Assembly (NCBI GenBank): GCA_013180625.2
Contig: SNVD02004473.1
Location: 1 to 64,000 of the forward strand
DNA length: 64,000 nt
Direction of reading: 5' to 3'
Source: Boswellia sacra
Taxonomy: Eukaryota; Streptophyta; Magnoliopsida; Sapindales; Burseraceae
A model generated the notes under the pieces. It ran no database searches, was not told the DNA's origin, and saw only the letters and a program-made list of their open reading frames with translations. This document shows positions 1,318 through 59,224 of this stretch, piece after piece (within the stretch, counting starts at the first letter, position 1; every line of letters starts with the position of its first letter). Made by a program: the position numbers and the translations under genes.

Positions 1318-1819
1318 ATAAGGTTATGAGAGTTCATAGATTTGGATAATTCAAAGTGAAATGAATAAGACCTCCTTGTTATGAAATTCAAAAATCAAGT
1401 CTAAATAATATCAAGTTAGCTAAAATGAGTTCATAAGATCAAAATAAAATGACAAATTGGTTAGAATGTGTTTCAAGAGTTCAAACTGGCCCTCCCTACT
1501 CTGCCATTCCTGACCCAGAATGCGTCTCAAGAGGATTTGAACTCCTTACACTGCACTCTGAATTTAATTACTAACTCGCTAAAATTCAAGACATACTTAT
1601 GTCTACTATCCTTCCCCCCCAACCAAATAAAATATTGTCCTCAATGTTTAAATGTAGAGAGATAAAGTATAAGAGACATTACCTGAAGCTTCTGTTATTC
1701 AAGAGAGATAACCTGAATGACTCATAAAATAAAATGTTAATAAAATAAAACAAAAGACAAGAAAAAAATTACAAACGGAGATTCAGATCCAATTTACACT
1801 TTTTGTTTTGCCCTCCTGA
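1318..1819. other. Intergenic, nothing recognised
   Basis: AT-rich spacer between the LTR end and the 3' end of the LOG-like gene. No coding signal or repeat could be supported. The LOG-like gene's 3' UTR probably lies at its right-hand end. Confidence 0.5.
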
Positions 1820-2419
1820 CTAATTAATTTGAGTACTAGTTGGGTCAAGTTTATACTCGACTGCTTGTAATTTGTCAAGTAACTCACCAGCAGAAGTGGC
1901 AGAAACAAGGATCTGTCTCACCAAATGAGGGATAAAATTTTGTTCTACAGCTGCATCAACAAAACTTATTAAAGGATCAAAGAAATTTTTTACATTCAAC
2001 AAACCTATGGGTTTTTTATGGACATTCAGTTGGGCCCAACAGGCAATTTGAAAAATTTCTTCAAGATTACCAAAGCCATCTGGTAAAGTAATAAAGGCAT
2101 CTGAATTGATAAGCATATGTGTCATGCGTTCATGCATAGAGGAGACTTGTAACTCTTTCCCAACCGCTTTTCCAACGACGCTTTCTATAGCCAAAGCTTT
2201 AGGAATAACTCCTAAAACTTGACTACCTCCTACATGTGCAGCTATTGACACACAATCCATTAACCCGAGGCTACCTCCCCCATAAAACACATGAATCATT
2301 CTTTTAGCCAGTAGCCTACCAAGATAATTTGCTACTTCGACAAACTCTTCACTTTTAGCCGATCGAGATCCACAGAATACACATATCCTTTGGATTCGAC
2401 GTTTTGAAGTTCCCTCCAT
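1820..2419 (-). CDS. LOG-like cytokinin riboside monophosphate phosphoribohydrolase, single exon
   Basis: This 199-residue protein has the length and fold signature of the LONELY GUY (LOG) family, which releases active cytokinin bases from their riboside 5'-monophosphates in the cytosol. Visible hallmarks are ICVFCGSR near residue 12, YGGGSLGLM near 46, the MHER block near 94 and LEEIFQIACWAQL near 117. The family signature PGGxGTxxE reads PDGFGNLEE here: the second glycine is Asp and the threonine is Asn, while the MHER arginine and the LEE glutamate are kept. Plant LOG genes usually have several introns, but this copy is one uninterrupted frame, which suggests a retrocopy or an intronless paralogue. 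No poly(A) tail or target duplication was evident. The start at 2419 fits the family N-terminus. Activity is uncertain because of the altered motif. Confidence 0.88.
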   Translation of the reverse strand: MEGTSKRRIQRICVFCGSRSAKSEEFVEVANYLGRLLAKRMIHVFYGGGSLGLMDCVSIAAHVGGSQVLGVIPKALAIESVVGKAVGKELQVSSMHERMTHMLINSDAFITLPDGFGNLEEIFQIACWAQLNVHKKPIGLLNVKNFFDPLISFVDAAVEQNFIPHLVRQILVSATSAGELLDKLQAVEYKLDPTSTQIN

Positions 2420-2635
2420 GTCTATGCAACTCTCTAACTATGTGTGAAGAAGAGAACAAGAGATGTGATATTTATGGAGTGCAAAAAGGTATGCTAATGA
2501 TGACATTAATATAGGTAGCTCGGTTGTTTGTTGAAAAAGTTGATAATAATGCATAAAAATTCAAAACAAGATGATAAAATAAGACACCATAAGTCAAATA
2601 AAAGATACAAATTCAAAAATGATAGCTATGAGGCA

Positions 2636-2749
2636 TTAAAATTCAAATATGATGGCACGCATGCATATGTACAGGTAGTTGTGACTGTAGCTCACATCTT
2701 CCTCTGGTTTTATGTCTAGAAATGGCTCAAACACCTTTAATGAGTTGGG
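2636..2749 (-). pseudogene. Distal part of coding sequence split by a CACTA element
   Basis: Read on the minus strand from 2749, this stretch stays open for 37 codons to a TAA at 2638-2636. It is in frame with the sequence ending at 10247 once the CACTA element and one copy of the GAT duplication are removed (...GKYI then PNSLKVFEPF). It is therefore the downstream piece of the unidentified gene described at 10247-10828. The protein family was not recognised. Confidence 0.6.
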
Positions 2750-2767
2750 GATCACTACAAGAAAATT
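2750..2767. repeat. Left target duplication and terminal repeat of CACTA element 1
   Basis: GAT (2750-2752) is followed by the terminal inverted repeat CACTACAAGAAAATT starting at 2753. The same 15 bases appear inverted at 10229-10243, followed by GAT. Confidence 0.92.
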
Positions 2768-5700
2768 AGGTTTATGTGTCACTTTATTTGTGTCGATTTC
2801 TAACAAAGTGACATGTATATTTCAGTCAAATCTAAGTAAAATCATATGTGTCACTCTTCCGGGAGTCTGTACCCTAATTTTTTCCTCCCTAACTATCCAT
2901 CTCCATCTCAATCTCCCTAACCCAACATGGCAGCAGCCCTTGTAGAGTCCGTCTAGTGTTTCGATCGTAAGAAGACTGCCGTCGTCATCGCCAACTATCC
3001 ATACACACTTTCTTTAATTTTATTTTTACATAAAAATGAAATATTATTGTTTTATTTTTTTTCTTTTTCTTTTTTTTTGTGGGCTTTCAAATCGAATTTC
3101 AATTTCTTTCAGACAGTCAAAAATGGAAGAGGCAAAAGCACGAGCCGCAAAAACCCAAGCACAAAGACGACGACGTAGAGGACGAAGACGAGGAACAAGA
3201 CAACAACAACAACAAAACGGACAATCACCATAATAATAACGGTAACATGGACAACGGCGACGACTTGCAGCATGCCTCCACGACGCCAGATCCGACAGTG
3301 AACGAGAGCGAGTTCTTAATTGACGGTGAGACCTGCATCTACGACTTCCCTCCGGTGGTCCAACGCGCTATCAACCGGCCGCACGCCTCCGTGTTGAATG
3401 TTGTGGCGATTGAGAGGGCAAATTTGGTCGGTGCGACTGGCGATAGTGCTAGGGGTCGTGGCAGCGTTGGAGAATATTTCGTACAGCCAGCTGCAAGCTC
3501 TGTCGGCTATGACGATGGATTGCGTGGCGTTATATCCGGATAGGAGTGATGGCAGGAGTTCAGCGTCGTGTGTGATTACTCCGCCGCAAATTATGGAAGG
3601 AAGGGGAGTCATTAAGCGGATCAGAAGTAGAGTTCATGTAGTACCTATGCATTCAAGTTCAGCTCTATCTCTGTTGTGTCCTTTATTTTGTTGGAAGTAA
3701 CTAGCAAACATTTGTGCCCTAGCAGCTTCATGGTGCATACGATTGCTTTTGAGTATTAAAATTCCTTTGTATGGTATTGATAGATAAAAATATTTGTTAA
3801 AATTTTACTCCCCTTCATCTTTTGAGTAACAGAAATTAAAAAATAAGAAATTGGGATGCTTAAGAAACAGAGGGAGAGGGAGAGGGAGAGTGAGAGAGAG
3901 TAGGGAATTAAGTCACTTATATTCTTGTATGGAGCTGGTTGTGGCCGGTTTGAAAAAGTTCAATTCGCTGTAGCAGGAAGTTAGTCTAGCGACTAATTTG
4001 AGGAATTTTAAGTTGCAAAGTATCTGGAAATTACATTTAGGATGGTGTTTACATTTATGCATCTTAGACGTTAAGTGAAGAGTCTTTGTGTGATTCATAT
4101 ACAGCTATGACTTTTCATTTGAAGTATGATTTCTCTATTTTGAGGTCAAAGGATCCAATATCTAAACTGATTAATTATTTAAATGGTTTTTGTGATAAAT
4201 TATTTGTCACCATTTGAATTATACCAAAAAGATGTTGCTTGGCATTTTCTTTGATATGCACATGTATTTGTTGTGTATGTGCATTTGTAATTATTATTTT
4301 TTTCAGTTTTTTGTGGGTTTATCCTCCCTCCCTTGCAGATTGGTTTTCACCAGCCACAGTGTATTGATTGGAGAGATAAGTGGTGCCACATTTTTTCTCT
4401 AGAAAATCACTAGAAAACACACTAGAGAAATACATGGAATGTAGGAACTATATTGTTGCTAAATACATGGATAATCCAGAGAAGAGGCTCACCGTTTCTG
4501 ATTGCCAGGGATTGGTAGATGGTATCAACTATGAAGACCTAAGTCGAATTTTTTGGTTTCTTAATCACTGGGGCATTATCAATTACTGTGCTTCTGCGCC
4601 AAGTCCTGAACCTTGGAATGGTGGGTCCTACTTGAGGGAGGATTCAAATGGTGAGGTTTATGTGCCATTAGCTGCTTTAAAGTCTATTGATAGCTTGATC
4701 AAATTTCACAAGCCCAAGTGTAGACTCAAGGTAGCTGATGTTTATTCATCATCCTCATGTCATGATGATGATTCCTTTGACTTGGACAACAGAATTCGAG
4801 ACCGTTTATCGAAAAATCATTGCAATCATTGTTCTCAGCCTATTCCAATTTTGTACTATCAGTCACAGAAGGAGGTAGGCTACATGCTCTCTTTGTTAGT
4901 ATTTGTTTTTTTTTTTTTGTCATTAGACTTTCTTGTTCGTATAAAGAACTAAACTGCATAAAAGTATCTCAATTGCTGAAATATTTTTCTCCAAAATTTT
5001 GTAATCGTGCATGAAATTAGCTAAAACTAAGTTCTTGCTATATCATGGCATACATTCTTTGTAGATTTTAATTAAATGGTGTGGATTTCTCTCTATTTGT
5101 TGAGTGACTAATAATTGTGGTCTGGATCTTTGAGCTGTCATCTTATATCGTATGACTCTAAATCATGGGTATAATCTGATGAAAGTTGTTCTAGATTTTT
5201 ATTTCTTTAACAAGAAGTGAAAATGTTCTATTGGGACCATTCTTGCTTTGATATACACTTCAAGGTTTCTCTTCCTCCGTAAAGTGTCATTACAATAGTT
5301 CCTTTAACAATGAGATTCCCTTAGCTTGCATTTTACAGATATCTATAAGACTGCAGATTCATTGCTATTAGAGTAATAGTTGTTTTGAATCTACTGATGG
5401 AAATTAAATTTGTAAGCTATAATTATTACCATTGCTAATTATGGACTTGAAAAGAACTTGTTTAAGAAGGTGAGTCAGAAATACTTTGCACTGCTAATGA
5501 CACTTGTTATTTTGTTGTGGTTAAGTAGTTTAAGAACCTATATAATTCACCAAAAGAAAGCGGAATTGCATTACTTTTTTGTTGAAGAAACCTTGTCTAT
5601 CAACTTTACCTTTGATAATCTTGGTTTAGCATGCATTCTGATGTATATTACTATGCTTACATCTACTATTTGCTGACTATTATTTAAATTAACAGGTTGA

Positions 5701-7714
5701 TGTACTTCTATGCTCTGATTGTTTCCATGAGGGAAGATTTGTTGCTAGTCATTCAAGTCTAGATTTTATTAGGGTGGATCCTGCAAAAGATTATGGTGAT
5801 CTAGATGGAGAAACTTGGAGTGATCAGGAAATGTTTTTGCTGCTTGAGGGCATAGAAATTTACAGTGATAATTGGAATGAAATTGCAGAGCATGTTGGCA
5901 GCAAGTCAAAAGCACAATGCATCCTTCATTTTGTTCGTCTGCCTATAGAGGATGGTTTGCTGGAAAATATTGAGGTTCCCAACATGTCCAATCCATCCAA
6001 TTTATCAAGTAGAGATGATTATGGAAGATCACGTTCAACTCTAAATGGTGATTTGCCAGGTATTCTTAAATGTTGATGATCTCTATCCTTCCAAATTATT
6101 ATTATGATGTTTATTCAAGATTTTTATGTTTACTTGTCTCTTTATATTTGCAGGATCAAGCTTTCAAGAAGCTGATTCAGAAAGTCGGCTCCCATTTGCA
6201 AATTCTGGGAATCCAATTATGGCTTTGGTAAGTGATTAGCATTTAATAATTGACGTTTGGGCTTTAAGATGATTTTGGTGATTATGTGAAAATAATTTAT
6301 ATTGAGTTTGAGATAAATTATTGCATTTGATTTTGACCTATGTGGTCCAAAATGGTTTGATGATTAGGATTTTGAAATACTGTCTCTTAACTTCATTCTA
6401 AGTAGGTTAAAATTTCAATTTCTTTTGTTATAGAAATAATTGTGAAACGAGTTCAACTTTTTCAATTTGCACTGAAAATATTTGGCTTGACTTCCATTAA
6501 TAGTGAAACTACATTTTGTAGACTTTTTACCAAGCAGCAATGATGCTCCATATATACCAGCTACTTCTTGTTATTTTGCCTCATAGCTATAACCTTTATT
6601 GAATTTGAGGCCATTGGCTTGATCACTCTCTTTCATTGATCTTTTAGTCCTTGCTCTTTTTATTGGAGCTATCTTTGGTAACCATTGATGACAATTAACA
6701 GAGGCAATATGGTTTAGAGAGATTACTATATCTTTACCAATTGCAAGTGTTGATACTAACTAGAAGTTTTAATGCCTTTGATACTAGCTGTAGTTCTTAT
6801 TTTTTTGCTTGCTTGAGTTTTGTGTTTCTAATTCGATAAATGTTCTAGGTTGCTTTTTTGGCCTCTGCTGTTGGACCAAGAGTTGTTGCAGCTTGTGCCC
6901 ATGCAGCCTTGGCCTCACTGTCAGAGCAGATAGAAGGACCCAGACACGGTAACAGGTTAGTGTATTTTCTTCTAATTCTCTTTCCCCTTTCTTGTTTTGT
7001 TTTTGTTTTTGTTTCTTGTTTTTTGTTTTTGTCTTTTGCTTGAATATATCCAGTATTTCAAGTGATTTCGTATAAATTTTTTGATAGGATTATTATGAGA
7101 TAAAAAGTCTGCCTAATTTTTTTGAGTCATAGCGATGGGCCAACTCATCATGCATAAGTTCTCCATATTATAAGTATACTATGACTTATGTTTGTTGGGT
7201 AAGAGTTGTGTAAAAAACAGAGGAAGGTTTCATTGTAATGTGTCTTTTTATTGGCTAGAAATCTAGACCTTTTTCATTGGAATTTTTGTATATATTTTTG
7301 CTTTAGTCTGTTATTTATGCTCAAAGATTTAAGCATTCCTTTTTACCTATGTAGAATTAACTCAGAGAATATACAGGGAGAAATTGCCAGTTCTATTCAA
7401 CAAAAAGGTATAGTATAATATTTAGTTTCCCTGTTTTCTCCATATTTTCTTCCTTTTCCCTGTGGTTTGAATTAATTTGTTTGATTATTTCTATGATTTA
7501 AACTTCAGGTAAGAACTTAACCGGTCACGGTTCAAGGAGCCAAAATGGGGCAGAGGTTGCTCCAATATCTGCAGATAAAGTTAAAGTTGCTGCTGAAGCT
7601 GGTCTTGCTGCTGCAGCCACGAAGGCAAAACTGTTTGCTGATCATAAAGAACGAGAAATTCAAAGGCTATCTGCTAATATAATAAATCATCAGGTATTGT
7701 TGTCTCTGTTTCAG

Positions 7715-7737
7715 ATATATATATATATATATATATA
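7715..7737. repeat. (TA)n microsatellite in SWI3C intron
   Basis: Simple TA run just after the exon ending at 7693. Confidence 0.9.
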
Positions 7738-9432
7738 AAAGGAAATTTATTCACCTCTTGGCCAAATTACTGACAATGCCACCTAGTTTAGAAGATAAGC
7801 TAAGATTTGCCAAACCTTAGGGAGGCCATTAAAACTTTTCCTATTTTTCCAAATCTAATTAAATTTCTCTTCTAATTTCTTTGATGTCTTTTAGGGAATG
7901 AGCTTTACATTTGTATTTGTCTTTGAATATATGTCCTTGGCAGTGCTTAGTTCTTGACTGTTAGTTGTTAGCTGTGATGATGGTGTCAAATTTGACTTGA
8001 ATTGTTGGTTCTGATATTGTAGAACATTTTCTGCCAGCGTCTAGAATTTGGCAGATTTCTGTTTTTAAAGTTTGTGCACAGGAATTTTTTCCAAATGTTC
8101 TTGCTATGTATCATGCATGAGTTGATATATTTAATCTTGGATTGCCAGTGTGTCTTGTCTCTTCATGTTGGGAGTATACAGGTGTATAGGTAAATCTGCA
8201 GTATCAGATGTGGCATTTTAAGTGTGAAGAACTTCTGATTTCTGGTTTAGTTTTCAGGTTGGGATGGGCACTTATAGATAATAAGATTACTCGTAGGTCT
8301 GGAGGGTGATTTGAGGTTCGTTAAAATTTTGGTTCTCTTTCTATTTAGAACTGTGTCTTTTCCAAATCTTCCTTTTTCGTAGTTTGTCTACTTGCTGTCT
8401 GAATGAAAAGAAGAGATGAGACTAATATGAACCAGAACAAAATGAAGCTGCTAATGCTATGACTCTATGAGGGTAAATAATCTGATATTGAATGGTCTAA
8501 CCCCTATGTTCTCGGGAATTGGGGTTTTTCTATGCACTATAAGCACCTTATTTTGAATGTCATTGCTTCTAATATTCTGCTTTTGGTTTAAATCTCCTAG
8601 AACTTTAAGTGCCTTATATGACAAACTCTAATAAATTTGGCATCGAATTATGATGTGAGAGCATACCATATGGGTAGCATGACTGGCAAATTTTGATTCC
8701 AGTGGATTTAAAGTTTTTTATTGTATTTTTATTTCATCATTTTTGTGCCATGGAAATGCATTTCTGGTAGATGACATAATCACATAATGCTACTGGGTAG
8801 ATTTTATCTCTGATTAAATTGGATATATGCTGGTGCATAAATGCCTAAAATATTTATTAGGTTTCTGCTTTATCTTGATGGCTTGTTCTACCTTTCAACA
8901 GATTCGTGCGTTCAAAATTTTTCAACAGGATATTGAAAAATTAAATTTGAACTTTTTGGGATCATTTGACTGAGAACATTTATTTATGAATCCAATATTG
9001 TAGTTCACAGTTTGACATTGCTATCAAATCAAATTCACTGGAGCTACCTTAGGATAGAATTATATTGCGCAAATTTTTTGGCCACCAAAGTTACAAGGTC
9101 TGAGATTGGTACTAGTTCAGATGGAACTCAGTGAGAACGGAAAAGGCTCTACAAAACTATTATATTTCATATTCATCTATAGGTGCTCTTTCTTTCTTTC
9201 TCTTTTTAACTGTTTATCCAGGAAATTAGCACTTCATTTGGGATAAGTTTAAAGATAAAATGGAAATTAATTTGTGGATCTCATAACTGTTGTGATGCTG
9301 TATATATACATGAAAGGAGATGTTGAGATAGATATGCTGTTTCAAACAGTATTATATGTATTTTGGTGATTCTTATTGTAAGCAAGTTAGTAGATTTTGT
9401 TCAACTGACAATTAAATGTTTTTCTTTTGCAG
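7738..9432 (+). other. Long last intron of the SWI3C-like copy
   Basis: About 1.7 kb of AT-rich sequence with no coding signal, between the donor at 7694 and the acceptor-like TTTTGCAG ending at 9432. It contains no recognisable nested element. Confidence 0.6.
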
Positions 9433-9776
9433 TTATGCTGGAGGAGGAATGGAAGTTAGATGTATCGATTTTATGGTCTTAGAGAGGTTTAAAAGTTCTA
9501 AGGCAGAGTTAGGATGTTAAGAGATGTAATCAGAATGCTTGTGCAACTTCTGTCATACAATTTTGTGCTTGACTTTTCCCTTTAGTTGAAATTTCTGCCC
9601 TTGTCATTTATGGTTGAGGAAATATAATGAGTTGATTATTTGCTACTTGTCTGGGAAGGAATAACCCTAAAATATGTATTGTATTGCAATGTGTTTGACA
9701 CTTTAAAGCTTGCAATAGGGCTCATAACATGTTATAACCATTTCATCTCTCATCATTTTATAGCAAAATAATATTT

Positions 9777-9780
<4 letters not shown>

Positions 9781-9826
<46 letters not shown>
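9781..9826. repeat. (TA)23 microsatellite
   Basis: Uninterrupted TA dinucleotides directly before the subterminal repeat zone of CACTA element 1. Confidence 0.95.
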
Positions 9827-9831
<5 letters not shown>

Positions 9832-9839
9832 CTGGGTTG

Positions 9840-10230
9840 ATGCAAGCAAAGGGTCGGTATCAGCCCAGTATTATATATTTTTAACAACAAATACATGTCG
9901 GTTTTTAACACTCACATATAATGCTGGGATATTAACAAATACATGTCGGTTTTTAACACTCACCTATAAGTTCAAAAAATATATGTCGGTTTCTAACACT
10001 CACATACTATTAGGACAACTTGTCACTTATAAACCCTTATCTTATGTAGTCAAATAGCTAAGATACATGTCGGTTTTTACCAGACAAGAGACCGACAAAA
10101 GGAATCGACATAAATTTGTGTCGGTTTGACCAACCGACATATATAGAATACACGTCGGGTCCATAAATGTCATATTGAAACCAGCATGTATACATATATA
10201 TGAGGGTGGAAAATCGACATATATAAGGAA
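9840..10230. repeat. Subterminal repeat array of CACTA element 1
   Basis: At least five copies of ATGTCGGTTT(C/T)TAACACTCAC-like units occur at about 9894, 9945 and 9984, plus shorter TGTCGGTTT and inverted ACCGACA copies to 10215. A related TGTGTCGATTTCTAAC lies near the left end at about 2791. The position and both-strand distribution match CACTA subterminal motifs. Confidence 0.8.
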
Positions 10231-10246
10231 TTTTCTTGTAGTGGAT
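10229..10246. repeat. Right terminal repeat and target duplication of CACTA element 1
   Basis: AATTTTCTTGTAGTG (10229-10243) is the inverse of the left end. GAT at 10244-10246 repeats the left target duplication. Confidence 0.92.
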
Positions 10247-10828
10247 ATACTTCCCATCTAGTTTTCTTATAAACTGACAAACAGGGTCATTTTGAGTTAG
10301 ATTCTCAAGACTATAGCATTCCTGCTCATCTCGGAATTGTGTCCACAATTTAAAAAATTCACGTTACACAAGTCCACAAGAATGCGTCTCAAGAGTCATT
10401 TGGATATCATCCAAAGACTCCCTACTCAATCCATTCTTGATGAATTGTAGTTTATCCTCTCGATTATGAGACAAATATCTCAAGGAGAGGCAACGCTGAT
10501 TACAAGTCTATCTTGCACATTTGTGACAAACTTGTAACCTTTTCACTCTTTGCTTTTTGGCGTAAGAGCTTTTTCCCAAACCTGGCATGTGAGGAACAAG
10601 ATTATTTGAAAATTCACAAGAAAATCGAACCTTGGCTTCAATTAACCATCTTACATTAGCAGGAATACCCTTACACATCAACATCGTTAGTCTTTCTCTG
10701 CAAGCTTTGTAAATTTTGAACAAATCATTTTGAGGAAGAGAGGGAAAATGTTTGTGCAATTTTGAGAGAATGGTATCTATGTGAAGAAAATGAGAGAGAA
10801 GAAAAGAAAATAGATGCAAGGTGAGCAA
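10247..10828 (-). pseudogene. Unidentified plant coding sequence, proximal part, split by CACTA element 1
   Basis: One minus-strand frame runs from about 10828 to the CACTA insertion. It shows a helical N-terminal part (LSKLHKHFPSLPQNDLFKIY), a basic segment, and a cysteine cluster CHKCAR..TCNQRC suggestive of metal binding. It ends ...QFIRKLDGKYI at the transposon and resumes at 2749. Two in-frame stops, TAG after KCAR near 10505 and TAA near 10353 after SCGLV, mark it as decayed. The long open frame on both sides of the stops and of the insertion argues for a real former gene. I do not recognise the family. The ATG at 10828 is only the first available start and may not be the original. Confidence 0.6.
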
Positions 10829-30491: not shown

Positions 30492-33400
30492 ATGGCTATA
30501 ACAAAGTTTGAGATGGAATGGTCTAATGGCAAGGGTGATGCTAGTGGTGGGAAAGAATGATTTGAGCTTAAGGTGGAGTCCTATTCAAATCATGATCCAA
30601 AGACTAGTGGAATAGATGAAGCACCCAAAGAGATTTATGAGGAAAAGATGCCAGAATGGTTTGGTAGGACAGTTAGCAAGTTCAAGCATTGCTTGGACTT
30701 TATCCAAATGAAATGCTTAACAAGTGGTTTAAAGCAATTGATGGAAGACTGAAAAGTATGCAAGATGAAAAGAATTGGGAGAAGATAGATGGTGATACGA
30801 TGGCAAGTCTGCATCTAGCAGTTGCAGATGAAGTGCTGTCAAGTATTCAAGAATTAAACTCTGCAAAGGAGATTTGGGATACGTTGACAAGCTTGTATGA
30901 AGCCAAATCTCTGTACAACAAAATTTTCTTAAAAAGGAAGCTGTACACTCTTTGTATGTCAGAAACCATATCGGTGACTGAACATATCAACATTTTGAAG
31001 ACGTGATTCTCTCAGCTCTCAACCATTGAGCATAACATAGAAGAGAAAGAATGTGCTGAGCTTCTACTTCAAAGTCTACCTGATTCATATGATAATCTTA
31101 TCCTCAACTTGACAAATGGTTTGATGAAGTCATCTCTAGTCTTTAATGATGTTGCGACTGCTGTCTTAGAAGAAGAAAGCAGACGTAGAAATAAGAAAGA
31201 TAGAATAATGACTTCTCAACAAGCAGAGGCTTTATCCGCCAACAGAGGGAGATCAAGGGAATGTGGTTTCAGTGGGAGACACAATCAGAACAAGGGAAAG
31301 TCTAAAGGAAGGAAGTTTGTTAAATGCTACCATTGTGGAAGGCAAGGGCACATGAAAAACGAGTGTTGGTATCTTAAGAAGAATGGAGAGGGAAAAAAAC
31401 AAAGGAAAAGAGTCTGAGTCGTCAGGATCTTAGGGTTGTGTAGCCAGTACTTCAGGAGATAGCGAAATCTTGTGCAGCGAGGCAACAACAGCTACAAAAG
31501 GCAAAAAAAGGTTTGCTAAAATCTAGTTAATTGATTCAGCAGTAACATGGCATATGAATTCTAGAAGAGATTAGTTCTATCAATATAAGCCTATCTTAGA
31601 AGGGTCTATATACATGGGTGATGATCATTGCTTAAAAATTGCTGGTATTAGAACTATCAAAGCAAAAATGTTTGATGGTATGATTCGCACTATCCAAGAT
31701 GTACGACATGTGATTGGCTTGAAGAAGAATTTGCTATCGATGGGACAGTTGGATGACCTCAGATGTGAGTTCCATACAAAAAATGGGACTATGAAGGTTG
31801 TCAGAGGCGCGCTTGTGGTGATGAAGGTAGAAAAGATTCTAGTAACCTATACATCCTCCATGGAGAAACTGTTCAGGAGGTAGAAACAGTAGTTGCTAGT
31901 TTTGGAGAAGAATTATCTATGATATGGCATCGAAGACTTGGCTATATGTCTGAAAAGGGTTTGAGAATTCTCTCTGATCGAAAACTGCTTCCTAGAATTA
32001 AAACTGTAAGTTTACCATTCTTTGAGCATTGTGTTATTAGCATGCAGAATATACTGAATTTAATAGATCTATTTCTAGGAGTAAAAATATTCTAAACTTG
32101 ATTCATTCTGATGTTTGTGAATCACTGGTTACATCCCTAGAAGGAGCAAATTACTTTGTATTGTTTATGGATGATTATTCTAGGAGATATTGGGTATATG
32201 TCATCAAGAAAAAGTTAGATGTATTTCCAGTATTTAAAGCCTTCAAAGCACAAGTGGAACTTGAATCCAGAAAAAGGATCAAGTGTTTGAGGACAGATAA
32301 TGGGAGAAAATTCTGCAACAAGGAATTTGACGTATTTTGCAGTCAATAAGGTGTGAAACGGCAGAAGACAGTTGCTTACACACCACAACAAAATGGAGTG
32401 GCAGAGTGGATAAATAGAACTCTCGTAGAAAGAATGAGAGCGTTACTAAAAACTATAGGTGTACCAAATACATTTTGGGTAGAAGCAGCCACCACAGCCT
32501 GTTACTTAATAAATAGGTCTCCATCAACAGCAGTTGAGATGAAGACACCTCTGGAGATATGGGCTGGTAAGCCAACTGATTATTCTTCTCTTCATATTTT
32601 CGGATGTCCTGCTTATGTGATGTATCATGACCAAGAAAGAACGGAGTTAGATCCAAAATCTAGGAAATGTATCTTCTTGGGGTATACTGATGGAGTAAAG
32701 GGGTATCACCTATGGGGTCCTCTGCCCTTAAGGTTTTCATCAGCAGCGATGTTGTCTTTGTAGAAGACATGTCTAAATGTGAAGAAAGTGATAGCACGAA
32801 GAAAAATGTTGAGACTGTATCAATAAGGAAGAAACAGTTTCTTCTGAAGCAATAGCAAAACACGATGATTAAGAACCATTCGAGTCTGAAGCACCTGAAG
32901 TCCATCGATCAACCCGAGAAAAAAGGGAACCTTCTTGGCACTTAGAGTATGTGATGGTGAGCAATATTGCATACTGTCTCCTATCAGAAGATGGGGAGCC
33001 TTTAACCTTTCAGGAGGCTATAACAAGTTCTAATGCATCTCTATGGATGACAGCAATGCATGAAGAGATAGAAGCCTTAGACAAAAACAAGACATGGGAA
33101 CTTGTGTCACTACCACATGGAAGAAAAGCCATCGAAAACAAATAGGTCTACAACATCAAACGTGATGGCAATGATCAAGTGAAGCGGTATCGTGCTAGAC
33201 TGGTGGTCAAAGTATATGCTCAAAAAGAAGGAGTTGATTTCAACGATATATTCTCTCCTATGGTATGACTTACAACAATTATAGCAGTCTTGGCTATGTG
33301 TGCTACATTTGACTTAAACTTAGAGCAGTTAGATGTAAAAACTTTGTTTCTTCATGGAGAATTTGAAGAAGAAATTTATATGCTCCAACCGGAAGGTTTT

Positions 33401-34555
33401 ATTAAAGAAGGAAATAAGAACTTGGTTTGTAGGTTGACCAAATCTCTACATAGCTTAAAACAGGAGCCAAGGTGTTGGTACAAGAGATTTGATTCATTCA
33501 TCATCAGGCTTGGGTACAACAGACTCAGTTCAAATCATTGTACGTATTACAAGAGATTTGAGCAAGACTTTGTCATTTTGCTATTGTACGTGGACAATAT
33601 GTTGTTAACAGGCAATAACAGAGATCAGGTCCAAGAATTAAAGGCACAGTTGGCTAGGGGATTTGAAATGAAGGATTTAGGATGGGCAAACAAGATTTTA
33701 GGGATGCAAATTCATCGAGACCAAAAAAACAAGAAGATTTGGCTATCTCAAAAGAACTACTTCAAGAAAATCTTGCACCGCTTCGACATCCAAGATTGTA
33801 AGCTAATTTCCACCCCACTTCTGTTAATCATAAATTATCCTCAAGTATGAGTCCTAGCAATGAAGTGGAGAGGATGAAAATGTCTCGAGTATCGTATGCA
33901 TCAACAGTAGGGAGCCTAATGTATGCTATGATTTGTACAAGATGAGACATTACACAAGAAGTGGAAGCGGTTAGTAGATTCATGGCTAATCTGGGGAGAG
34001 AGTATTGGAATACTGTTAAGAGGATCCTTAGATACATCAAAGGGACCTATAATGCTGGGCTATGCTATGGAGGATCAGAGTTCATTGTCAAGAGCTATGT
34101 TGATTCAGATTTTGTAAGAGACATTGACAAAAGGAAGTCCACTACAGGCTATGTGTTTACACTTGGAGAAGGTGCTGTGAACTCGGTATCAAAACTAAAA
34201 ACTGTTGTGGCTCTATCTACAACAAAAGTAGACTATATGGCAGCTACATAATCTTACAAGGAAGCTGTCCGGATCAAAAGGTTATTGGAGGAACTCGGGC
34301 ACAAACAAGAGAAGATTTCTTTATTTTGTGACAGTCAGAGTGCCTTGCATATCGCAAAGAATCCAGCCTTTCATTCAAGAATGTAGCACATAGGAGTTCA
34401 ATATCATTATGTACGAGAAGTAATAGAAGATAGAATAGTGGATATGCAAAAAAATCCACATGAAGGACAACATAGCAGATGCATTGACCAAACCAATCAA
34501 TGCTAACAAGTTCATCTGGTGTAGAACGTCTTGTGGCCTGTTAGAGAAGTGAGCA
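30492..34555 (+). pseudogene. Ty1/copia gag-pol polyprotein, decayed
   Basis: Order is that of copia. Gag (about 30690-31410) has EIWDTLTSLYEAKSLYNKIF and a zinc knuckle CYHCGRQGHMKNEC. A GAG-pre-integrase block lies at 31614-31990. Integrase (32098-32700) keeps the Asp, Asp and Glu motifs IHSDVC, LRTDNG and NGVAEWINRT. Reverse transcriptase (32951-33850) has FLHGEFEEEIYMLQPEGF and LLYVDNMLL. RNase H (33960-34555) ends in an ADALTKPI-like block. There are many breaks: an early stop after the gag start, a TGA near 31003, a TAA near 32347 in integrase, several in RT and a TAG near 34384. The reverse transcriptase YVDD box reads YVDN, so a catalytic Asp is gone. Confidence 0.92.
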
Positions 34556-41916: not shown

Positions 41917-44900
41917 TCACAAACAACATCCCCACCACAACCCCCCAAATCCCCACCCCTCCGCCTTCCTCTTCTTTTTGTTAGGAATCCGGAAAAGAGT
42001 GCCTTCACGTGATGACTGGAACTCGTAGAGGATCCTGTGAGAGAAAATTACCTTGAAAAAGAAAGGAATCTGTAGAATGGCGAAAACGATTAATATCGTA
42101 TAAGCTATGACGCTTATGTAAACAGGAGTACTGCTCACTTGCTTCCCATCTTTGAAGAGAATGGAAATAGTTTCACAAAATGCTGACAGCATTGCTAAAA
42201 CTGAATAGTAAAGTGCAAAAAATCCAAAAGCCAGTCTTAAAGGCAACGACACAAGGAAATCTTTTTCTTGAAATCGTGAATGGTAAATGGATAAGAAGAT
42301 CAGTATCGAGCAAGTGGAAAGCAGCAGAGATACTGAATCACCTCCAACAAAAGACTTGAAGGAAGAATCTTCCCCGAGATTAGCAGCCCCCGTGTCCTCT
42401 TTCGTGCCACCTGGTACCTGGAAAACTGCTGCAAAGGTCATGGTGGCAACAATTGTTGCCGCCACCAGACTTGAACTCACGGAGTCTTTAATCCATCTCT
42501 CACCTTTTTGCTTTAACTCTTTGTGTTGCTCCGTAAATATGTCTCTAGCGGTTTCCCCTTTGCTATTTTTAGCTTCAGCAATTGATGGATGTAAAATCCC
42601 ACTTACTTTCTACAGTTAATGACAAGAAATATTTTAGAAATGGAAGAAAAGAAAATTCCACACAAAAAGTGGAGTAGTTAAATAGTTACCTTAAACCACG
42701 CTATGTCCACCATTAGCTGGAAAAGTGCTCCTGATTCAGTATTGCGCCGATCTGGTGGTGGCAAACTTGCAGCCAAATGCAAAATAGTGTTCCCTTCTTT
42801 ATCTGCTCTCTGAATTAGCAAATCCTTTGAGGAACCAATTTCATGTACGATTCTGAAGATGTTGATGTGACGATACTTAACAGCAAAATGAAATATGCTA
42901 TAATGATTTTCGTCAACTTCAAATATCAGATCAGGAAAGTCATAAAAAATAATGTTTAGGAATTCTATGTTTCCTTGTTTTGCAGCAGCAAATATCAGTG
43001 AACTAGGTTTTCTTATAATTTCTGGGATGTCAGATCCACACAAAAGCGTAACTTTTTCCCATAGAAGTTCGACTAGTTTAAGTGCTTGAGGGGGCATCTT
43101 CATCTCTTCATAGCCTGAAACGTGTAGTTTGGCTGAGATGATTAATGATCACAGGAAAAATTGCAATTCATTCTAAAATTATAGAAAAACAAAAGATAAT
43201 ATACTTCTACATCTAAAACACGCTTCTCTCAAATCACACATTTAATATGCTGCAGTCCCATGTACAATCAAGAGTGTGTAATCTGCATTAATATCTCTAG
43301 TGGCACTCACTCTCTCTCCACTTATAGAAACACACAATAAATAAAATAGTCCAAATGGAAATGTAAATCACAATTATGAAGGCACGCTGCAGCCGAAGGT
43401 GTACTTAATAGACGAAAGAACTACATACCAAATACGTAACGGTATACCCTCCACCAAAATCCTTGTTGAGCTTTTAGAGGCATTTGAGCCAACAAATGCA
43501 ATGCTGTCGATTTATTTTTATCACTTTTAGTGGCTGTCTCTGGGTATTCCTGTACCAACTGCAGCGCAATATCTGCGAACACATAAATCAACACCAAAGA
43601 TAATGTCTAATCAACGTTAGACTTGTTGCTTCAAAATAATCAAAGAACGTGCACAACTACTCATGTAGAATAGTGCTTACCAAACAAACTGCTTTTTATC
43701 AGAGCAGTAAGCAACTCGACCAGATCCTCGGCAGTTAAGGGAGCTTCATTCATTCTATATAGCTTGATAGCATCCTCACTACTTAAAGGAGCTGTAGTGA
43801 CTTTATAAAGGTGCTCCACCATCTTTCTCCGCCCGTTCAGGGCTGCCTTATAAAGTGGTAACTTAGCCTCTTCACCTCGGATGAATGCTAAATATTTATC
43901 CTCCTTCAACATTACCTTGGCAAGTTCCACATTTCCCGATGCAGCAGCAATGCAAAGAGCCGTATTGCCAGCATTATTTTTCATGACTAGAGCAGCATTA
44001 TGTTTCTCTTCTACCAGTTTTATCCCAAACGTAGAGCGCTCTAATGCAGCTGCAATGTGCAGAGCAGTGTCCCCTTCCTTGGAAATCTTAGCTAAAATAT
44101 CATCGGGATATTTATCAAAAATATCTTTAGCTATTTCCCAATCGCCTTTAAGGGCAGCTCGATACAATTCGGAGTGTCTTTTTCTCTTTTCGTTCTCTGT
44201 CAAGAACTCTGGTGGAAACAAGAGCAAGTTTTATCAAAAAGATTTTTGGTAATTGGTACATTATAATTAATGCATTAGTTGAATTTACACTAACCGCAGA
44301 AAATATAGACCTCTTGTGATGCATTATCAATCTTTGATAATAGTATAATTTGTTAGACCTTAATTTGTTCACGATAAATTGCAAAATATTTTTCAAGATA
44401 AATTATAAAATTAAAAACACATATTTATAATATATGTGTTTTTAATTTTATAATTTATCATATATTCATATATGCATATATTCAGGAAGAGTTGTGTCTA
44501 CAAAAAAGAGATTTATTGTTTACAATATATATCCTATATCCAAGTCGAATTTTTAAGATAAATTTGGATCGAGTCGTTATTTGTCAAAATGGATAGCAAC
44601 TCAATTAAACAATTGCCTAATTCACTCCCAAACAATTTGTAAATGTCATTTTAGAATTTATTTATTAATTATACTAGTCCTCCAGAAATTTTAATCCATT
44701 CGTACTGGAAAAGCGACTTTGGGTCGACTTGAAAAAAGACTGTTCTCTTCATACTCACCTATTAGCTTTTTAACGGTTATTTCAATTAACGTAGGTAAAA
44801 TTGTCTTAGAAACCAATACTAGGTAAAATTGTCATAGAAACCAATAATATTGATTAAGCTTGTTTGAACTTAAGACTTTAGCGAAAGATTATTTGAATTT

Positions 44901-46607: not shown

Positions 46608-47218
46608 TGTGACACCCTAAAACTTGTAAGTGTGTTGAATCTTTTTTGCATCATAATGTACGTATTACTATTATTAATTGCATATAGGCATGCATGGGAA
46701 TCATATGTACAAAGATAGGAGTTGGAGGGATGAGGAGAAAGTTAGAAACTTGGGGGACTTAACAAAAAGTTTTGCTTATTTGGATAAATATAAAAGGAGA
46801 GGGTTGGAGAGACTTCTAGATAATTTTATTTTGGTTTATGCTCAAACCCTCCAGTACACACTCATCCCCTCTAGTTTTCAAGGCAATTGAAGGTGAAATT
46901 AGAGGCTTTAGAAGAAGGAAAGGTAGACTTTACTCTTTGTCTACTTCTAGTCCATAACCATGGCAAATAATTATGAAATTGACATTCCATGAAAGTTGTT
47001 GGAAAACTTGAGTTATGATGAAGTATGAAAGAATTAAGGAGATTGGGTGTGGTTAGGAAGCTAGAAGTAGAGTTAGAGTTTAAATTCTGCCATAGTTTAT
47101 TTCCTGGGCAGTACTGAGTATGAAATTTCTGAAAAATCCTAGGATTGTCATTCGATTATGAAATTTTTATATGTGAAACTAGACATGTTTAGGGGTTTCA
47201 CTACAAGAAAAATGGGCT

Positions 47219-47715
47219 ATGGCAACGCGCATTCCGTGTTGCTAAAAGGTTTTCGCAACGCGTAGGTGCGCGTTGCCGTTCTTACTGCTGCGAAAAGTCT
47301 TTCACTTTTAGCAACGCGCACATGCATGTTGTGAAAAGTGATTTTGCACGTTGCAAAATATCTTTTGGCAACATGCATTGCGTGTTGCTGAAAGACAAAG
47401 TAAAAGAGTTTTAGCAACACACAATGCGTGTTGTTGTAGACATCAATGGCAACACGCAATACGTGTTGCTGTAGACATCAATGGCAACGTGTAATGCATG
47501 TTGCTGTAGAGATCAATGGCAACGCGCAATGGGTGTTGCCAAAAGATTATAAGTAATATAGTTTCTGCAACATGCAACGAGCGTTGCCGTAGACATCAAT
47601 GGCAACGCGCAATGCGTGTTGCAAAAAGATTAGAATTAATGTAGTTTAGCAACATGCAATGCACATTGCTGTAGATTTAAACATATGAGTTTTGGCAACA
47701 TGCGCATGTTGCCAT
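47219..47715. repeat. Left subterminal palindrome array of element 3
   Basis: About a dozen copies of GGCAACGCGCAATGCGTGTTGC-like half-sites (20-base core GCAACGCGCAATGCGTGTTG) occur on both strands. Many show C-to-T decay (GCAACATGCA, GCAACACGCA). Confidence 0.85.
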
Positions 47716-48213
47716 TTATTTGTTGTAGAAATATATTGTATTTATAATCAAATACAATTTTTATTAATATGTAATACCTGCTTATTATTTATTATACAAA
47801 TTGGTATATAAATTATCTCAGAATACATAATATATAATAAATGTACAAATTTGTATTATGTTAATAATATCACAAATATTATTAAAAATACAAGTACTTG
47901 TAATTAATATGTAATACAATTCTCAATGACTTAAGGAAAATGAAATCAAGTAAAACATACTTAAGCACAAATTTGTACATAAGCAACAAAATCATCATCT
48001 TATTTTAGCATCTTGATTGATGAACTTTCCAAACAAACACAAACAAAGCCTACACAAGCAATTTCAAAATGTTACATAAGCAAGATAACAATAGGCATAT
48101 AGAACTTAGAGATGTACATTTAAAATTGAAAACAAATGGGTACAACTTAGATTCCCCGTAGTGGCAAAGTTCACAAAGTGTAGTACAAGTGTAAGCATAA
48201 TAAAAATAACTCA
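47716..48213. other. AT-rich interior of element 3, nothing recognised
   Basis: Between the left subterminal array and the first exon-like piece. No feature was supported. Confidence 0.4.
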
Positions 48214-48315
48214 CTAGCCAAATTCTTCATAGAGCTCCAGAACTTTGCCCTTAACTTGCACTTCCTTTCTTCTTTCGTTAATCACTTTACCAATCTTCTC
48301 TACATCAATTCCAGC
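48214..48315 (-). pseudogene. Terminal exon-like fragment inside element 3
   Basis: After an acceptor-like TTCTTGTAG, the minus strand reads AGIDVEKIGKVINERRKEVQ, then VKGKVLELYEEFG and stop. It is charged and helical, like a protein C-terminus. I do not recognise the family. It may be the end of the same captured gene as the Nudix-like exon or an independent capture. Confidence 0.45.
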
Positions 48316-49763
48316 CTACAAGAAGCAATGAATAGAGTAAAAGTAAGTTCATTTATTGTGCACAACCAGTGGTAAAATAACAAGAAAAAAAAACAAGGTA
48401 AGTCAAGTACTAGCAACTTTTTGCATAAAGAACTAAATTTCAAGCCAGATTTGCTAGCCATATTTCTAATCCACACCACTTTTACTTAAAATGTTAGGTT
48501 GGGTATGTATGGAGAAAAACAAACAAAACAATATAGTTGACACATTAGTAGGATGATATATATATATATATATGAAAGAACTCAAAAGGTATATCCCATT
48601 ATTTAGATAGAGTTGGCAGATCAAATACTATAGAGCTTTTTTGCAAAAGTTGCAGGGGGTGTGGTAGAGTTGCTTGGAACCAATGTCGATGCAGCTCGGC
48701 ATTTCTTTCAAATACACATATATGTTTGGCCATCAAATACAATTAACTAACCATCTGCACTAATCCCCTTATTCTTTTTCAAGTTTTTCAATGTGCAAGC
48801 TTAGATAAAAAATGACTCCTTGGCTTTGCTTCTCGAAACTCCTCCAACGAGTGCCAGTAAGCATCCTAATTGTGCCTTGGGAAGAATTACCGTTTCTTTA
48901 TTTTGGACTCAATCATTTGTCTTGGGATTTTGAGTCATGAATCATTATCCATCATACTAGTGATAACAACCACGCTCTTATATATGTAAATTAATTGTAA
49001 TTTGTACATTAATCTCACTCCAAATACGAATAGATAGCAAGCTTGTAATTAATCTTAACATGAGACTGATCAAAAGCTAGAAGTGCTACAACCTAATCAT
49101 TAAAAACCAGATAATATATGCAATAGCACCATGTAGAGATCTTTAATCTTCTTGATATAAGTACAATGGAGATATTAATGAGTATGTACTATTTTTAACG
49201 TATCTATGGACAATAAATTGTGTTTGATGGTGTATTAATTAATATTCCTATTGTATTGAACACATATACAATAATATATAAATTGTATAGCCAAGCATGT
49301 AGGTTTAGCTAAAAAGTGGCGTAGATTTTCATGTTGACTGATAATTCACTTAGTAAAATTCCAATCAAATTTGATGAGTTGGGTTTCATTGATTACTAGC
49401 CCATTTGTTTATTTAGTTTATTCAAATAGTTTTTTATCATAATGAAAGTTCATGAAGAAAAATCAGCATACATTTTTGTCATCTTTTTTCAATAAAAGAT
49501 ATAACTTCAGAAGGATATCTATATATGTTTTATAACTCCTATTGAAGACATTGACGATCAATAGTACTTAATTATCAAGTCAGGCTTAAAGATATACAAA
49601 GATAAGCAATTATATAAAGAACAGAGTAATAATAATAAAAATGATATGTATAGGAAACATGTGGAGTGACTAATTTACTTGACTTTCTGCATTTCAAATG
49701 ATCAATCAAGAGTTAACAAAACATGAAGCTCTGCCAATCCTTACGAAGATGTGAACCTCTCAC
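48316..49763. other. Interior of element 3 between exon-like pieces
   Basis: AT-rich, with a (TA)n run at 48557-48572. No coding segment was supported. It may be intron of the captured gene. Confidence 0.4.
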
Positions 49764-49835
49764 CTCAATAACGACGCCAGTAGGTAGCTTCCAAATTCCT
49801 CTGAATCTTTCTTTGCTCTCTTGGACTACTAAAAC
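49764..49835 (-). pseudogene. Nudix hydrolase exon fragment captured in element 3
   Basis: A 72-bp minus-strand exon with acceptor-like TTGGTAG before it and GTGAG donor after it encodes VLVVQESKERFRGIWKLPTG followed by VVIE. This matches the segment just before the Nudix box in plant NUDT2/NUDT10-type hydrolases (VLVVQE...WKxPTGVV). The Nudix box itself (GxxExAxxREVxEETG) would lie in the next exon and was not found, so the fragment cannot make an enzyme. Confidence 0.72.
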
Positions 49836-50853
49836 CTACCAAATTGGAATAATTCAACTTTAGATAAATATCTGAAGTGAAGGTGATCAAGAATTCAACT
49901 TCACTTTACCAATCTCACTTTTGTTTTCATTTGATTGGTTTTCTCAGTCCTAGCTAAAAAAGTTGGTGGCCTCCACTACCATTTATTGTTAATTTATTGC
50001 TATGTTATGCCACTATGGTGTAGCTTCACTTTTGCAACACCATGACTAACCTCAGCACATGCAGCTCACAGTTCTTAACAACATACAGACACAAATTAGC
50101 CAATGGTCATGCAGCTCACTCACCTCCCTCATGCATCTTCAACTCACAACACATGAAGCTAACCCATGTAACAACTCGGTCCACTTGCAAACCATGTGCA
50201 CAAATATTATGATCAGTTTCATCTTCACATGTTTAGCTTTAGTCGTTACCGTAATTCTAGGTGAGATACCGTGAATCTAGGAACAATGCTTTCACGTGTT
50301 CTTGAGTCTATATGAAGTGCAATGTAATCTATTCACTCATTTTCATACAATAAGAATCTGGCTTTTACTTCATTTTTTTTTTTTTTTCACGATGCAGTGA
50401 ACTGATAACTTGATCGAACAAAATTCTTTTGCCTCGTTATACAATATGAATTTGTAATGATTGTCTAAGAAGACCTAATAGTATAATAAGACAAATGAGA
50501 AAATTTTTTAAAAAAAAAAAAAGCAATTCACATTAGGAGAAACTAATATCGACATACTTCACAATGGAATTAGAAATACCAAAAATCTAATTTATTAAAA
50601 TCTTCACCAAATGGTGTACGAAAACATCAACGCCTAAAATCTCGATTTCAAAATCAATCAGAGCCAAACCTTAGCACCAATACATAGAAATCTTGATCTC
50701 AATTTAAATTTAAAATATAGAAATTATACAATTAGGTATAGAAAGCATCAAATCCATCCATCCAGCATTAAGCCATCAAACAACAGCAACAACAAAACAA
50801 AATTATTGGAAAGTTGGAGGTGTACCAGAGTCCTTTTTAATGTCTTCTCTCCG
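49836..50853. other. Interior of element 3, nothing recognised
   Basis: Mixed-composition sequence with short poly(A/T) runs near 50373 and 50508. No coding piece was supported. Confidence 0.4.
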
Positions 50854-51024
50854 TCATTTGCAGTTGCGGGCCCAATTAGCGATGGTGGAGCAAGCATCGC
50901 CATCGGAATTAGTCTCAGGCAAATCAGGCAAGATTTCTATCCTCAAGACTTGATCAAAGAAGTTGTCGTAGAAAGTAAAGTGGAAATCAAAGTCAAGGCC
51001 GCCCAGAGAGAGGTTTGAATCCAT
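50854..51024 (-). pseudogene. First-exon-like open frame inside element 3
   Basis: ATG at 51024 opens a 56-codon frame (MDSNLSLGGLDFDFHFTFYD... to NWARNCK). Composition is richer in G+C than its surroundings, as for a host first exon. No family was recognised. It lies upstream, on the same strand, of the Nudix-like exon, so it could be the 5' exon of the same captured gene, but that is inference. Confidence 0.35.
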
Positions 51025-51481
51025 GAACATTCGCGGATCAAAAGAGATTCACGCTCGAAACTTTCATACCCAAACGTAAACCCAAGAGCGCAAGTGAAAA
51101 CACAGGGAGAGGGAAAGTAAGATCAAAGAGGGTCTTTAGATTCATTTTTGTCTTGAGGGGTTTACATATTTGTCCTTATCGGTTAAAATGACCAATTTGG
51201 AAATGGACAAGCCAAAAATATGAATGAAAATAGGGTTTGACTTTTAACTACGGGTTATATTTATTTTTAAATTTTATTTATGCATCTTGTTTATTAAAAT
51301 TTATTGATAATTATTTAAATAAATAAATGAACTATTTATCTTGCAATTTTAATTTCTTAATATTTATTTAAATAAATAAATGAAATTACTATAGTTTTAT
51401 GTAAATTTTAACTTTAAATTATTTCAAAGATTAAAAATTCTAATAAGCTAAGAATAAAATTAAAAAATAAATTAAGACATT

Positions 51482-51690
51482 TCGCAACGTGCAGAATGTG
51501 CATGTTGCTAAAACTCAGTTTTAGCAACATGCACATTCTGCACGTTGCGAAATATAATTTTTAGCAACACGCCTTCCATGCGCGTTGCTAAAAACTAACT
51601 TCATCAGTTTTTCGCAACACGCAAGAAATGCATGTTGCGAAAAGTATCATTCAGCAACGTGCATTTCTGTGCGTTGCGAAAAACCTGTTG
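51482..51690. repeat. Right subterminal palindrome array of element 3
   Basis: Alternating direct and inverted GCAACGTGCA/GTGCGTTGCGAAAA words. Several form hairpins with 6-8-bp loops, such as GCAACGTGCAGAATGTGCAT (51485-51504). Confidence 0.85.
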
Positions 51691-52328
51691 CTGTATCTTC
51701 TTTTCTTGTAGTGTTTATAGAATTTTGAATCACTCAAAAATTCGAAATGAGTGAATAATGGTGAATTTTTGAAGTTGCTGAACCGAATTTGAATCTCCCC
51801 TGTTTTGAAACAGAGTACGGGAAACAGGTTTCTTTTGAGGAGTCAATCTTTCATGAAAAATTCTAGTTTTTGGTATGCAAAATCTTGATTGTGTTCCTGT
51901 TGAACTAGAAATTTTCAGGATTTTTGGAGTTTTGTATGAATTTATATGATTTTTCAAAATTGTGGTTGTGAAACTGAAAATTTTAACTTTGAAAATAGAG
52001 CAAGCTTACTAAATTGCTTTTGACTGACTTAAACTCATTAGAAAATTGTGATTTTTGGTAAATGACTTTTATATTTGTCTAGTTTTAGACTGAAAAGTTT
52101 GGCAAAGATTTGATAAAGTTGAATTTTATAAAATTCTTCAAAGTACTGCTGCTTAGTTGAAAAGCCTGTAGACAGAAATTGTATATGGTCAAAATTAAGG
52201 GATTTGAAGAGGCATATGGCCTCCTTTTAATCCAATAAAATTTATGAGATGTGATACATGTATTTGTGTGAATCCCATGAAATTTGGGGATGATTGGAAT
52301 AGGTACCCTCGTAATATAATTATCCAAC

Positions 52329-57889: not shown

Positions 57890-58096
57890 CATGGCTTTCG
57901 CAACGTGCATTGGTTGCACGTTGCGAAAGCCCTTTTTTGGCAACGTGCGCTCTATGCACGTTGCGAAAAACGATTTTCAGCAACGTGCATGTGTTGCACG
58001 TTGCTGAAAGACTATATCGCAACGTGCATTTTCTGCACGTTGCGAAAAGTGTTGAATTTAGCAACGTGCATATGCTGCACGTTGCGAAAAGTTTTG
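57890..58096. repeat. Left subterminal hairpin array of element 4
   Basis: Five consecutive palindromes of the form GCAACGTGCA-loop-TGCACGTTGC, with arms of 9-10 bp and loops of 3-6 bases (57899, 57940, 57979, 58018, 58059), spaced about 40 bp and joined by GAAAA(G/A) linkers. It is strikingly well preserved. Confidence 0.92.
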
Positions 58097-58980: not shown

Positions 58981-58983
58981 AGA

Positions 58984-59179: not shown

Positions 59180-59224
<45 letters not shown>

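Follow-up and report, generated by a model that had tools for sequence, protein, structure and literature searches.

How did most of a chromatin-remodelling gene come to lie, introns included, between the ends of a DNA transposon in Boswellia sacra? The question was raised by the first 64,000 nucleotides of contig SNVD02004473.1 (GenBank assembly GCA_013180625.2), hereafter the window, in which a reading of the letters alone (the original prediction) had placed a CACTA element carrying a nearly whole SWI3C gene. We found that this element, which spans 7,491 bp (2753-10243), is a Pack-CACTA transposon with a composite interior, in which a 5' fragment of the RPS16/uS9 gene is followed by about 6.0 kb of SWI3C and by the right end of another CACTA element. 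Very probably, it is a non-autonomous element that was built stepwise, transposed, and is decaying neutrally as silenced transposon DNA. The host genome searched comprised 638.6 Mb in 7,431 contigs, the window being C2256:1-64000. Candidates scored were 40 of 103 for copies of the element, 40 of 144 for its left end, 31 of 31 for the RPS16 DNA, 40 of 319 for the last 404 bp of the right end, 40 of 2,431 for the empty site and 150 of 1,265 for Transposase_21, and all counts from these searches are lower bounds.

Ends, interior and parent gene

The ends are those of a CACTA transposon, as had been predicted. An end search of the window located the terminal inverted repeats (TIRs; CACTACAAGAAAATT) at 2753-2767 (+ strand) and 10229-10243 (- strand). 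Both begin with CACTA, they match each other at 15 of 15 bp, and they are flanked by a GAT target site duplication at 2750-2752 and 10244-10246, the left one also fitting the empty-site match with a single GAT described below. With up to two mismatches allowed, the window contained four TIR matches, compared with a mean of 0.63 and a maximum of 3 in shuffled sequences; the other two matches belong to a second CACTA element. The 15-mer end was found 336 times in the host genome versus 4 times for a reversed control. Both comparisons rule out a chance match of the ends.

Inside the CACTA left end (2753-2871, + strand), which is common to many other elements, lies the RPS16/uS9 fragment (2872-2994, + strand) with its 5' leader, an ATG at 2927 and about 20 codons. 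The SWI3C homology (2995-8991), also on the + strand, covers native intron 1 through exons 2 to 8 of 9. It starts with the 3' part of intron 1 (2995-3112), the native exon 1 with its ATG being absent, and continues with exon 2, which has a 2-nt deletion near codon 118 (3113-3656), exon 3 with the SWIRM region and two stop codons (4339-4874), exon 4 with the SANT/Myb region (5696-6059), exon 5 (6154-6227), exon 6 (6849-6955), exon 7 (7355-7407) and exon 8 with the start of SWIRM-assoc_1 (7509-7693). A nearly complete intron 8 (7694-8991) then stops a few bases short of the last coding exon. The remainder (8992-10243, + strand) is a CACTA right end, found too in elements without SWI3C, and includes four subterminal direct repeats of the ATACATGTCGGTTTTTAACA type (9891-10082, + strand); the left side has one similar 20-bp motif at 2786-2805. 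Only three open reading frames (ORFs) of at least 120 aa (stop-to-stop) were present within the element, all of them SWI3C exons. No transposase ORF was seen in the element, a profile search for spliced or broken transposase remnants in the window not having been made. An Rfam scan of 1500-10600 returned nothing at gathering scores, and neither the RPS16 piece, whose length is insufficient for one, nor two frames at 9400-9600 had a Pfam match. An early candidate interpretation of 9433-9780 as SWI3C 3' untranslated region (UTR) after an internal deletion was rejected, as this stretch is part of the right end of another CACTA element.

The captured SWI3C segment holds about 1.86 kb of coding sequence in seven exons, with six GT-AG introns. 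Exon mapping and Pfam domains (SWIRM, 4.5e-19; Myb_DNA-binding, 1.8e-10; SWIRM-assoc_1, positions 2-33 of 84) bore out the seven exons and their introns that had been proposed, while the ZZ domain scored below the Pfam cut-off in the captured SWI3C. For the stitched protein, the acceptor G was used at the first intron junction, the window base at 3656 being A. Among the 562 proteins found, the closest was Pistacia vera SWI3C (78% identical), whose last-exon part (157 residues) had no match within the element.

An intact parent gene was located elsewhere in the host genome, as the original prediction had suggested checking; it lies at C5143, the best of the matches that lack CACTA ends. It starts with an ATG at 375538 (MPASPSFHS), has introns, and its last exon ends in GTSSGGLG followed by a stop; the exact CACTACAAGAAAA is absent from the 19.8 kb fetched around it. 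The captured segment is about 95% identical to this gene over about 6 kb. Homology of the copies begins at native positions 375625-375627, within intron 1, and that of the window runs to 381654, which is a few bases short of the last exon, leaving the captured SWI3C without promoter, start codon or last exon. Three parts of the original description thus need revision: the homology spans 6.0 rather than 6.4 kb, no promoter-proximal SWI3C sequence is present because the homology starts inside intron 1, and the interior is a composite of three sources instead of a single captured block. An early reading from protein data alone, which put the junction in the first coding codons, was also abandoned since native exon 1 sits upstream of the captured part. 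A processed pseudogene or retrocopy was rejected because six introns are retained between exons 2 and 8, as was a functional SWI3C paralogue given the lack of a complete open frame and of purifying selection on the copies.

Short separate SWI3C fragments from the region of exons 7-8, 86-96% identical to the native gene, were also detected at two places in C6514 (L056, C6514:19600-22700) and one in C1806 (L057, C1806:22800-23800). C6514 also has an RPS16-bearing left end about 4 kb from its SWI3C fragments. The C6514 and C1806 fragments may reflect a second uptake of SWI3C.

Insertion site, copies and probable stepwise assembly

When the two flanks of the element (150 bp each) were joined with one GAT, all 40 scored places in the host genome matched over 299-300 of the 300 bp (target lengths of 299-300 bp) at 93-94% identity. 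The joined flanks therefore match repeat copies that are empty at this point, and the element is a true insertion in an abundant repeat. These empty copies serve here in place of the relatives and haplotypes that the original prediction had named for a refutation. The left end together with SWI3C was present at five places, the window, C3431, C2572, C4406 and C7223, so that several elements do carry the same SWI3C segment, an outcome the original prediction had named as support for mobility. The C3431 copy has both TIRs, the same borrowed right end, internal gaps, an ATT duplication, and flanks unlike those of the window element. These different duplications and flanks indicate that the element was mobile after capture. 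A flank of 2.6 kb is common to C4406 and C7223 (97% identity), which represent one locus, two haplotypes or a larger duplication and were counted once. The SWI3C-bearing element is thus found at at least four loci.

The copies differ in length and in what follows SWI3C. About 92 extra bp lie just after the left end in C2572, C4406 and C7223, and are absent from the window element and C3431. C2572 and C4753 include the beginning of the last SWI3C exon, which is followed by a piece of SelO (Pfam SelO, 5.1e-7 and 2.6e-10, respectively), with the SWI3C/SelO junction at the same place to within a base; C2572 additionally contains a short GTPase-like sequence downstream. C4753 may be the 3' portion of the C4406 element, separated from the rest by an inserted repeat that has a TAATG duplication.

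The RPS16 piece (2872-2994) encodes MAAALVESV*CFDRKKTAV, codon 10 being TAG in the window and CAG in the other four copies. A PDB search with a 30-residue RPS16 query (E up to 10) returned six sequences, all uS9, S16 or S9 (best E 0.0029), and a 20-residue query returned five, four uS9/S9 proteins and an unrelated cyclase at E 1.7. Searching the genome with the DNA of this piece yielded 33 matches; 18 of these extended over most of the piece, including five in SWI3C-bearing copies. Furthermore, the left-end query matched at least 37 further places, 13 of which extend to the point where SWI3C begins, and RPS16 was present in all six of these 13 elements that were fetched. Two of the six, at C3200 (L049) and C3620 (L050), contain the whole RPS16 coding sequence to its stop, with internal stops. 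Five of the six sampled elements share a stop at an FYQ/FY* codon, suggesting that the RPS16-bearing elements probably spread as pseudogenes. An intact intronless RPS16 gene was found at C6585. The RPS16/SWI3C junction is identical in all five SWI3C-bearing copies. Because RPS16 occurs in CACTA elements without SWI3C, it was most likely present first, SWI3C being joined later inside it; the RPS16-carrying group also looks older, as its members without SWI3C are more diverged.

On the other side, the sequence at 8986-10243 was found without SWI3C in other elements, including C1119 and C960 (about 95% identity) and C6145 (89%), and the last 404 bp had at least 64 matches, those of the window and C3431 included. 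SWI3C and the C1119-type sequence share exactly six bases, ATGAAT, at the join (8986-8991, + strand). The C1119 (L046) and C960 (L047) loci hold a 6.4-kb element, 98% identical between them, whose right end is that of the window element; L046 showed no ORF of at least 100 aa.

The history that we propose would have begun with a host CACTA group carrying RPS16 just inside its left end. An RPS16-bearing element would then have been joined, near RPS16 codon 20, to SWI3C (from intron 1 into exon 9), with the SelO fragment lying behind it. In the lineage of the window element, about 92 bp near the left end would have been lost, and the part past SWI3C intron 8 swapped for the right end of another CACTA at the 6-bp match. 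A transposase acting in trans would next have mobilised the product, leaving at least two complete insertions whose 3-bp duplications differ. The copies, neutral and presumably methylated as transposon DNA, would have undergone C-to-T decay at CG and CHG sites. For Pack-CACTA, the parts of the sources that we saw (PMC8903248, PMC13317346) propose that genes are captured when neighbouring elements are aberrantly joined; the left junction common to the copies and the 6-bp match at the right junction are consistent with such a process without proving it.

A potential transposase source is abundant. The Transposase_21 domain had at least 150 matches over the cut-off in the host genome (150 of 1,265 candidates scored) and none in 14 control genomes. 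Two of these loci, L059 (C2924) and L060 (C2480), have the same 15-mer end with Transposase_21 about 5.05 kb inside, and different subterminal repeats; they are possible autonomous CACTA elements.

Decay of the copies and possible consequences for the parent gene

Lineage, mutation and coding counts were restricted to alignment columns with letters in all six rows. Derived sites numbered 90 in the group formed by the window, C3431 and C2572, and 67 in the pair C4406 and C7223; 83 sites separated the native gene from all copies and 15 conflicted with these lineages. Kimura two-parameter (K2P) distances were 0.016 between the window and C3431, 0.019 between the window and C2572, 0.005 between C4406 and C7223, and 0.038 to 0.052 from the native gene to the copies. 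At the rate of 1.3e-8 per site and year, quoted for LTR elements in the portion of the source available to us (PMC4290129), the split between the window and C3431 would date to about 0.6 million years, which is likely an overestimate because of methylation.

At the protein level, the captured copy and the native protein formed a group (100/100) placed beside pistachio and mango (93/93). The end branch of the captured copy measured 0.10, that of the native protein 0.0047. Among the sampled proteins, which in a first tree without the native protein were 22 of 120 plus the captured copy, the closest were those of Anacardiaceae. Against seven intact Sapindales proteins (P0001-P0007 of the 120 listed), the window copy had changed at 49 of 398 positions invariant in these relatives (51 of 400 with its two stops counted), versus 1 to 22 of 399 to 420 for each relative. 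Private changes fitting C-to-T or G-to-A accounted for 31 of 49 in the window copy and 22 of 70 in those relatives (native not included).

The stop at SWI3C codon 194 is common to the window, C3431 and C2572, and those at 267, 359 and 552 are common to C4406 and C7223; the elements therefore multiplied as pseudogenes. On the element branches, exons had changed at 145 of 1,763 columns and introns at 149 of 2,807 (Fisher p 1e-4), while sites separating the native gene from all copies showed the reverse order, with 20 of 1,763 exon and 58 of 2,807 intron columns (p 0.02). The polarised set was made of two-state columns with named patterns, so that 78 of the 83 native-versus-all sites were included, and the exon set begins 7 nt inside intron 1. 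Coding effects in the copies (39 synonymous, 100 nonsynonymous, 6 stop) were close to the simulated values (41.8, 95.8 and 7.4). Hence, the copies evolve neutrally.

Most polarised element changes (172 of 294) were C-to-T or G-to-A. Per cytosine, C-to-T on the element branches affected 52 of 210 CG, 60 of 382 CHG and 60 of 1,608 CHH sites. Unpolarised native-side candidates were 2 of 103, 1 of 192 and 16 of 1,147, and those on the shared element stem, also unpolarised, were few (CG 3 of 123, CHG 11 of 215, CHH 14 of 1,116). CHG methylation is typical of silenced transposons. With an excess at CG and CHG in the copies and none on the native side, these mutation contexts suggest that the copies are probably methylated and their captured exons treated as transposon DNA, and the parent gene not.

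The same contexts bear on whether small RNAs derived from the element silence or tune the native SWI3C in trans, as the original prediction had envisaged. Compatible with this would be the length of about 6 kb at approximately 95% identity, exons included, and the mutation contexts of the copies, which are of the transposon type. There is, however, no CG/CHG excess on the native side, an argument against long-lasting silencing of the parent in the manner of a transposon. We consider such an effect unlikely, and an RNA-level effect that leaves no such mutation trace is possible. More improbable still would be a scenario in which the CACTA lineage places its RPS16 leader and start codon upstream of each gene subsequently joined, first SWI3C and then SelO, such that an in-frame RPS16-SWI3C chromatin protein once existed in the ancestor of one lineage and, now decayed, leaves remnants that may still feed small RNAs matching the chromatin-remodelling gene.

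A chimeric gene working today, in which the RPS16 leader and ATG would be used and a GTAAGA donor inside RPS16 would splice in frame to SWI3C exon 2, is very hard to reconcile with the data. The phase at C2966|GTAAGA, read by eye from the sequence, does fit the exon 2 frame in the window, C3431 and C2572, GT-AG is retained by all six SWI3C introns of the window and C2572, and RPS16 codon 10 is CAG in four of the five copies. Yet the window, C3431 and C2572 share the codon-194 stop, C4406 and C7223 share three other stops and lack the GT donor, and coding change is neutral. Finally, that a SWI3C duplicate (segmental or a relocated pseudogene) came to be flanked by two unrelated CACTA ends by chance would agree with the retained introns and the high identity to the native gene over 6 kb, but is highly improbable given the second complete copy with the same ends, its own ATT and unlike flanks at another site, the 40 of 40 scored repeat copies (2,431 candidates) matched by the joined empty site, and the left junction identical in five copies.

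Several observations weigh against the stepwise Pack-CACTA history with neutral, methylation-driven decay that we favour. C4406 and C7223, sharing flanks, may not be two independent loci, and C2572 matches the right end only weakly (95 bp, 72%) and has flanks that lack a matching duplication. The RPS16 gene at C6585 matches only 44-113 of the 123 bases of the piece, the coding part only. Neither of the two transposase loci examined (150 of 1,265 candidates scored) has the subterminal sequence of the window element, and no autonomous partner that agrees with it in this respect was found. A higher G+C content in exons (44%) than in introns (31%) alone helps exons change faster in the copies, and the unpolarised native-side comparison cannot separate native change from early element change. 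Moreover, the intron-4 donor (window position 6060) is TT in the native gene, C4406 and C7223, and GT in the window, C3431 and C2572, for which a single capture offers no simple explanation. With TT after exon 4, native SWI3C may be spliced from a donor further upstream, which also seems to be the case for one mango copy (P0003, which lacks the matching residues).

Comparison with known captures and remainder of the window

The element belongs to a kind already known, of which it is an unusually large and well-documented example. As far as the consulted parts of the sources go, Pack-CACTA and other Pack-TYPE transposons have been described in Arabidopsis, rice and maize, with several donor genes known (PMC8903248), and the window element resembles them in being non-autonomous, with CACTA ends, a 3-bp duplication, host coding DNA from several donor loci and several copies. 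Unlike those described in the same excerpts, it has one segment that spans about 6.0 kb of a single gene, with seven exons, and a likely order of captures is apparent from the diverged and young copies that one genome contains. Host gene pieces that keep exons and introns are also present in the 5.7-kb soybean CACTA Tgm-Express1, where, in the part of the account seen, five short pieces are spliced into host gene transcripts (PMC1947982), whereas the window element sits in an abundant repeat. On wheat chromosome 3B, the sections available report 140 CACTA-mediated capture events with a mean captured coding sequence of 488 bp and 3.05 exons, compared with about 1.86 kb and 7 exons here, and purifying selection on a subset of captures, which is not the case for the SWI3C copies (PMC4290129). 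Similarly, grapevine transduplications by CACTA and other elements include host-gene fragments from exons, introns and 3' UTRs; the CACTA-family PPR example in the pages consulted lies beside a transposase ORF in opposite orientation (PMC2528002), whereas no such ORF was seen in the window element. No paper with both CACTA and SWI3C was found in the open-licence literature, and a literature search for CACTACAAGAAAAT gave no match.

Gene capture by CACTA elements is known, but the individual steps can seldom be observed. In the present genome, the parents, the more diverged RPS16 group, the longer RPS16-SWI3C-SelO elements and the shortened element that borrowed its right end all occur together; the breakpoints can be placed to the base or nearly so, and one of them shows a 6-bp match. 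The CHG C-to-T excess also serves as a sequence-only test, suggesting that the captured gene is treated as a transposon and its parent is not.

The second CACTA element of the window (47199-51713, about 4.5 kb) is of another family, with ends CACTACAAGAAAAAT and CACTACAAGAAAAGA, a TTT duplication and subterminal repeats of the GCAACACGCAATGCGTGTTGC type; Pfam gave no match to its longest ORF (126 aa). About 0.3 kb from the insertion described here, an intronless open frame at 1820-2437 (- strand; Pfam Lysine_decarbox, 1.7e-32) is one that we take to be of the cytokinin LOG type, for which the usual motif is PGGxGT. It has PDGFGN in that place and is possibly a decayed retrocopy. Pieces of a Ty1/copia-type retrotransposon lie at 31007-33850, with RVT_2 (4.5e-45) at 33269-33850 and the remaining frames known as listed ORFs. 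Ankyrin/PGG gene pieces were found at 41917-44230 and 57136-62923 (both - strand), where 57136-57612 and 61795-62190 are listed as ORFs only, and a piece of an NB-ARC disease-resistance gene is located at 62072-62923.

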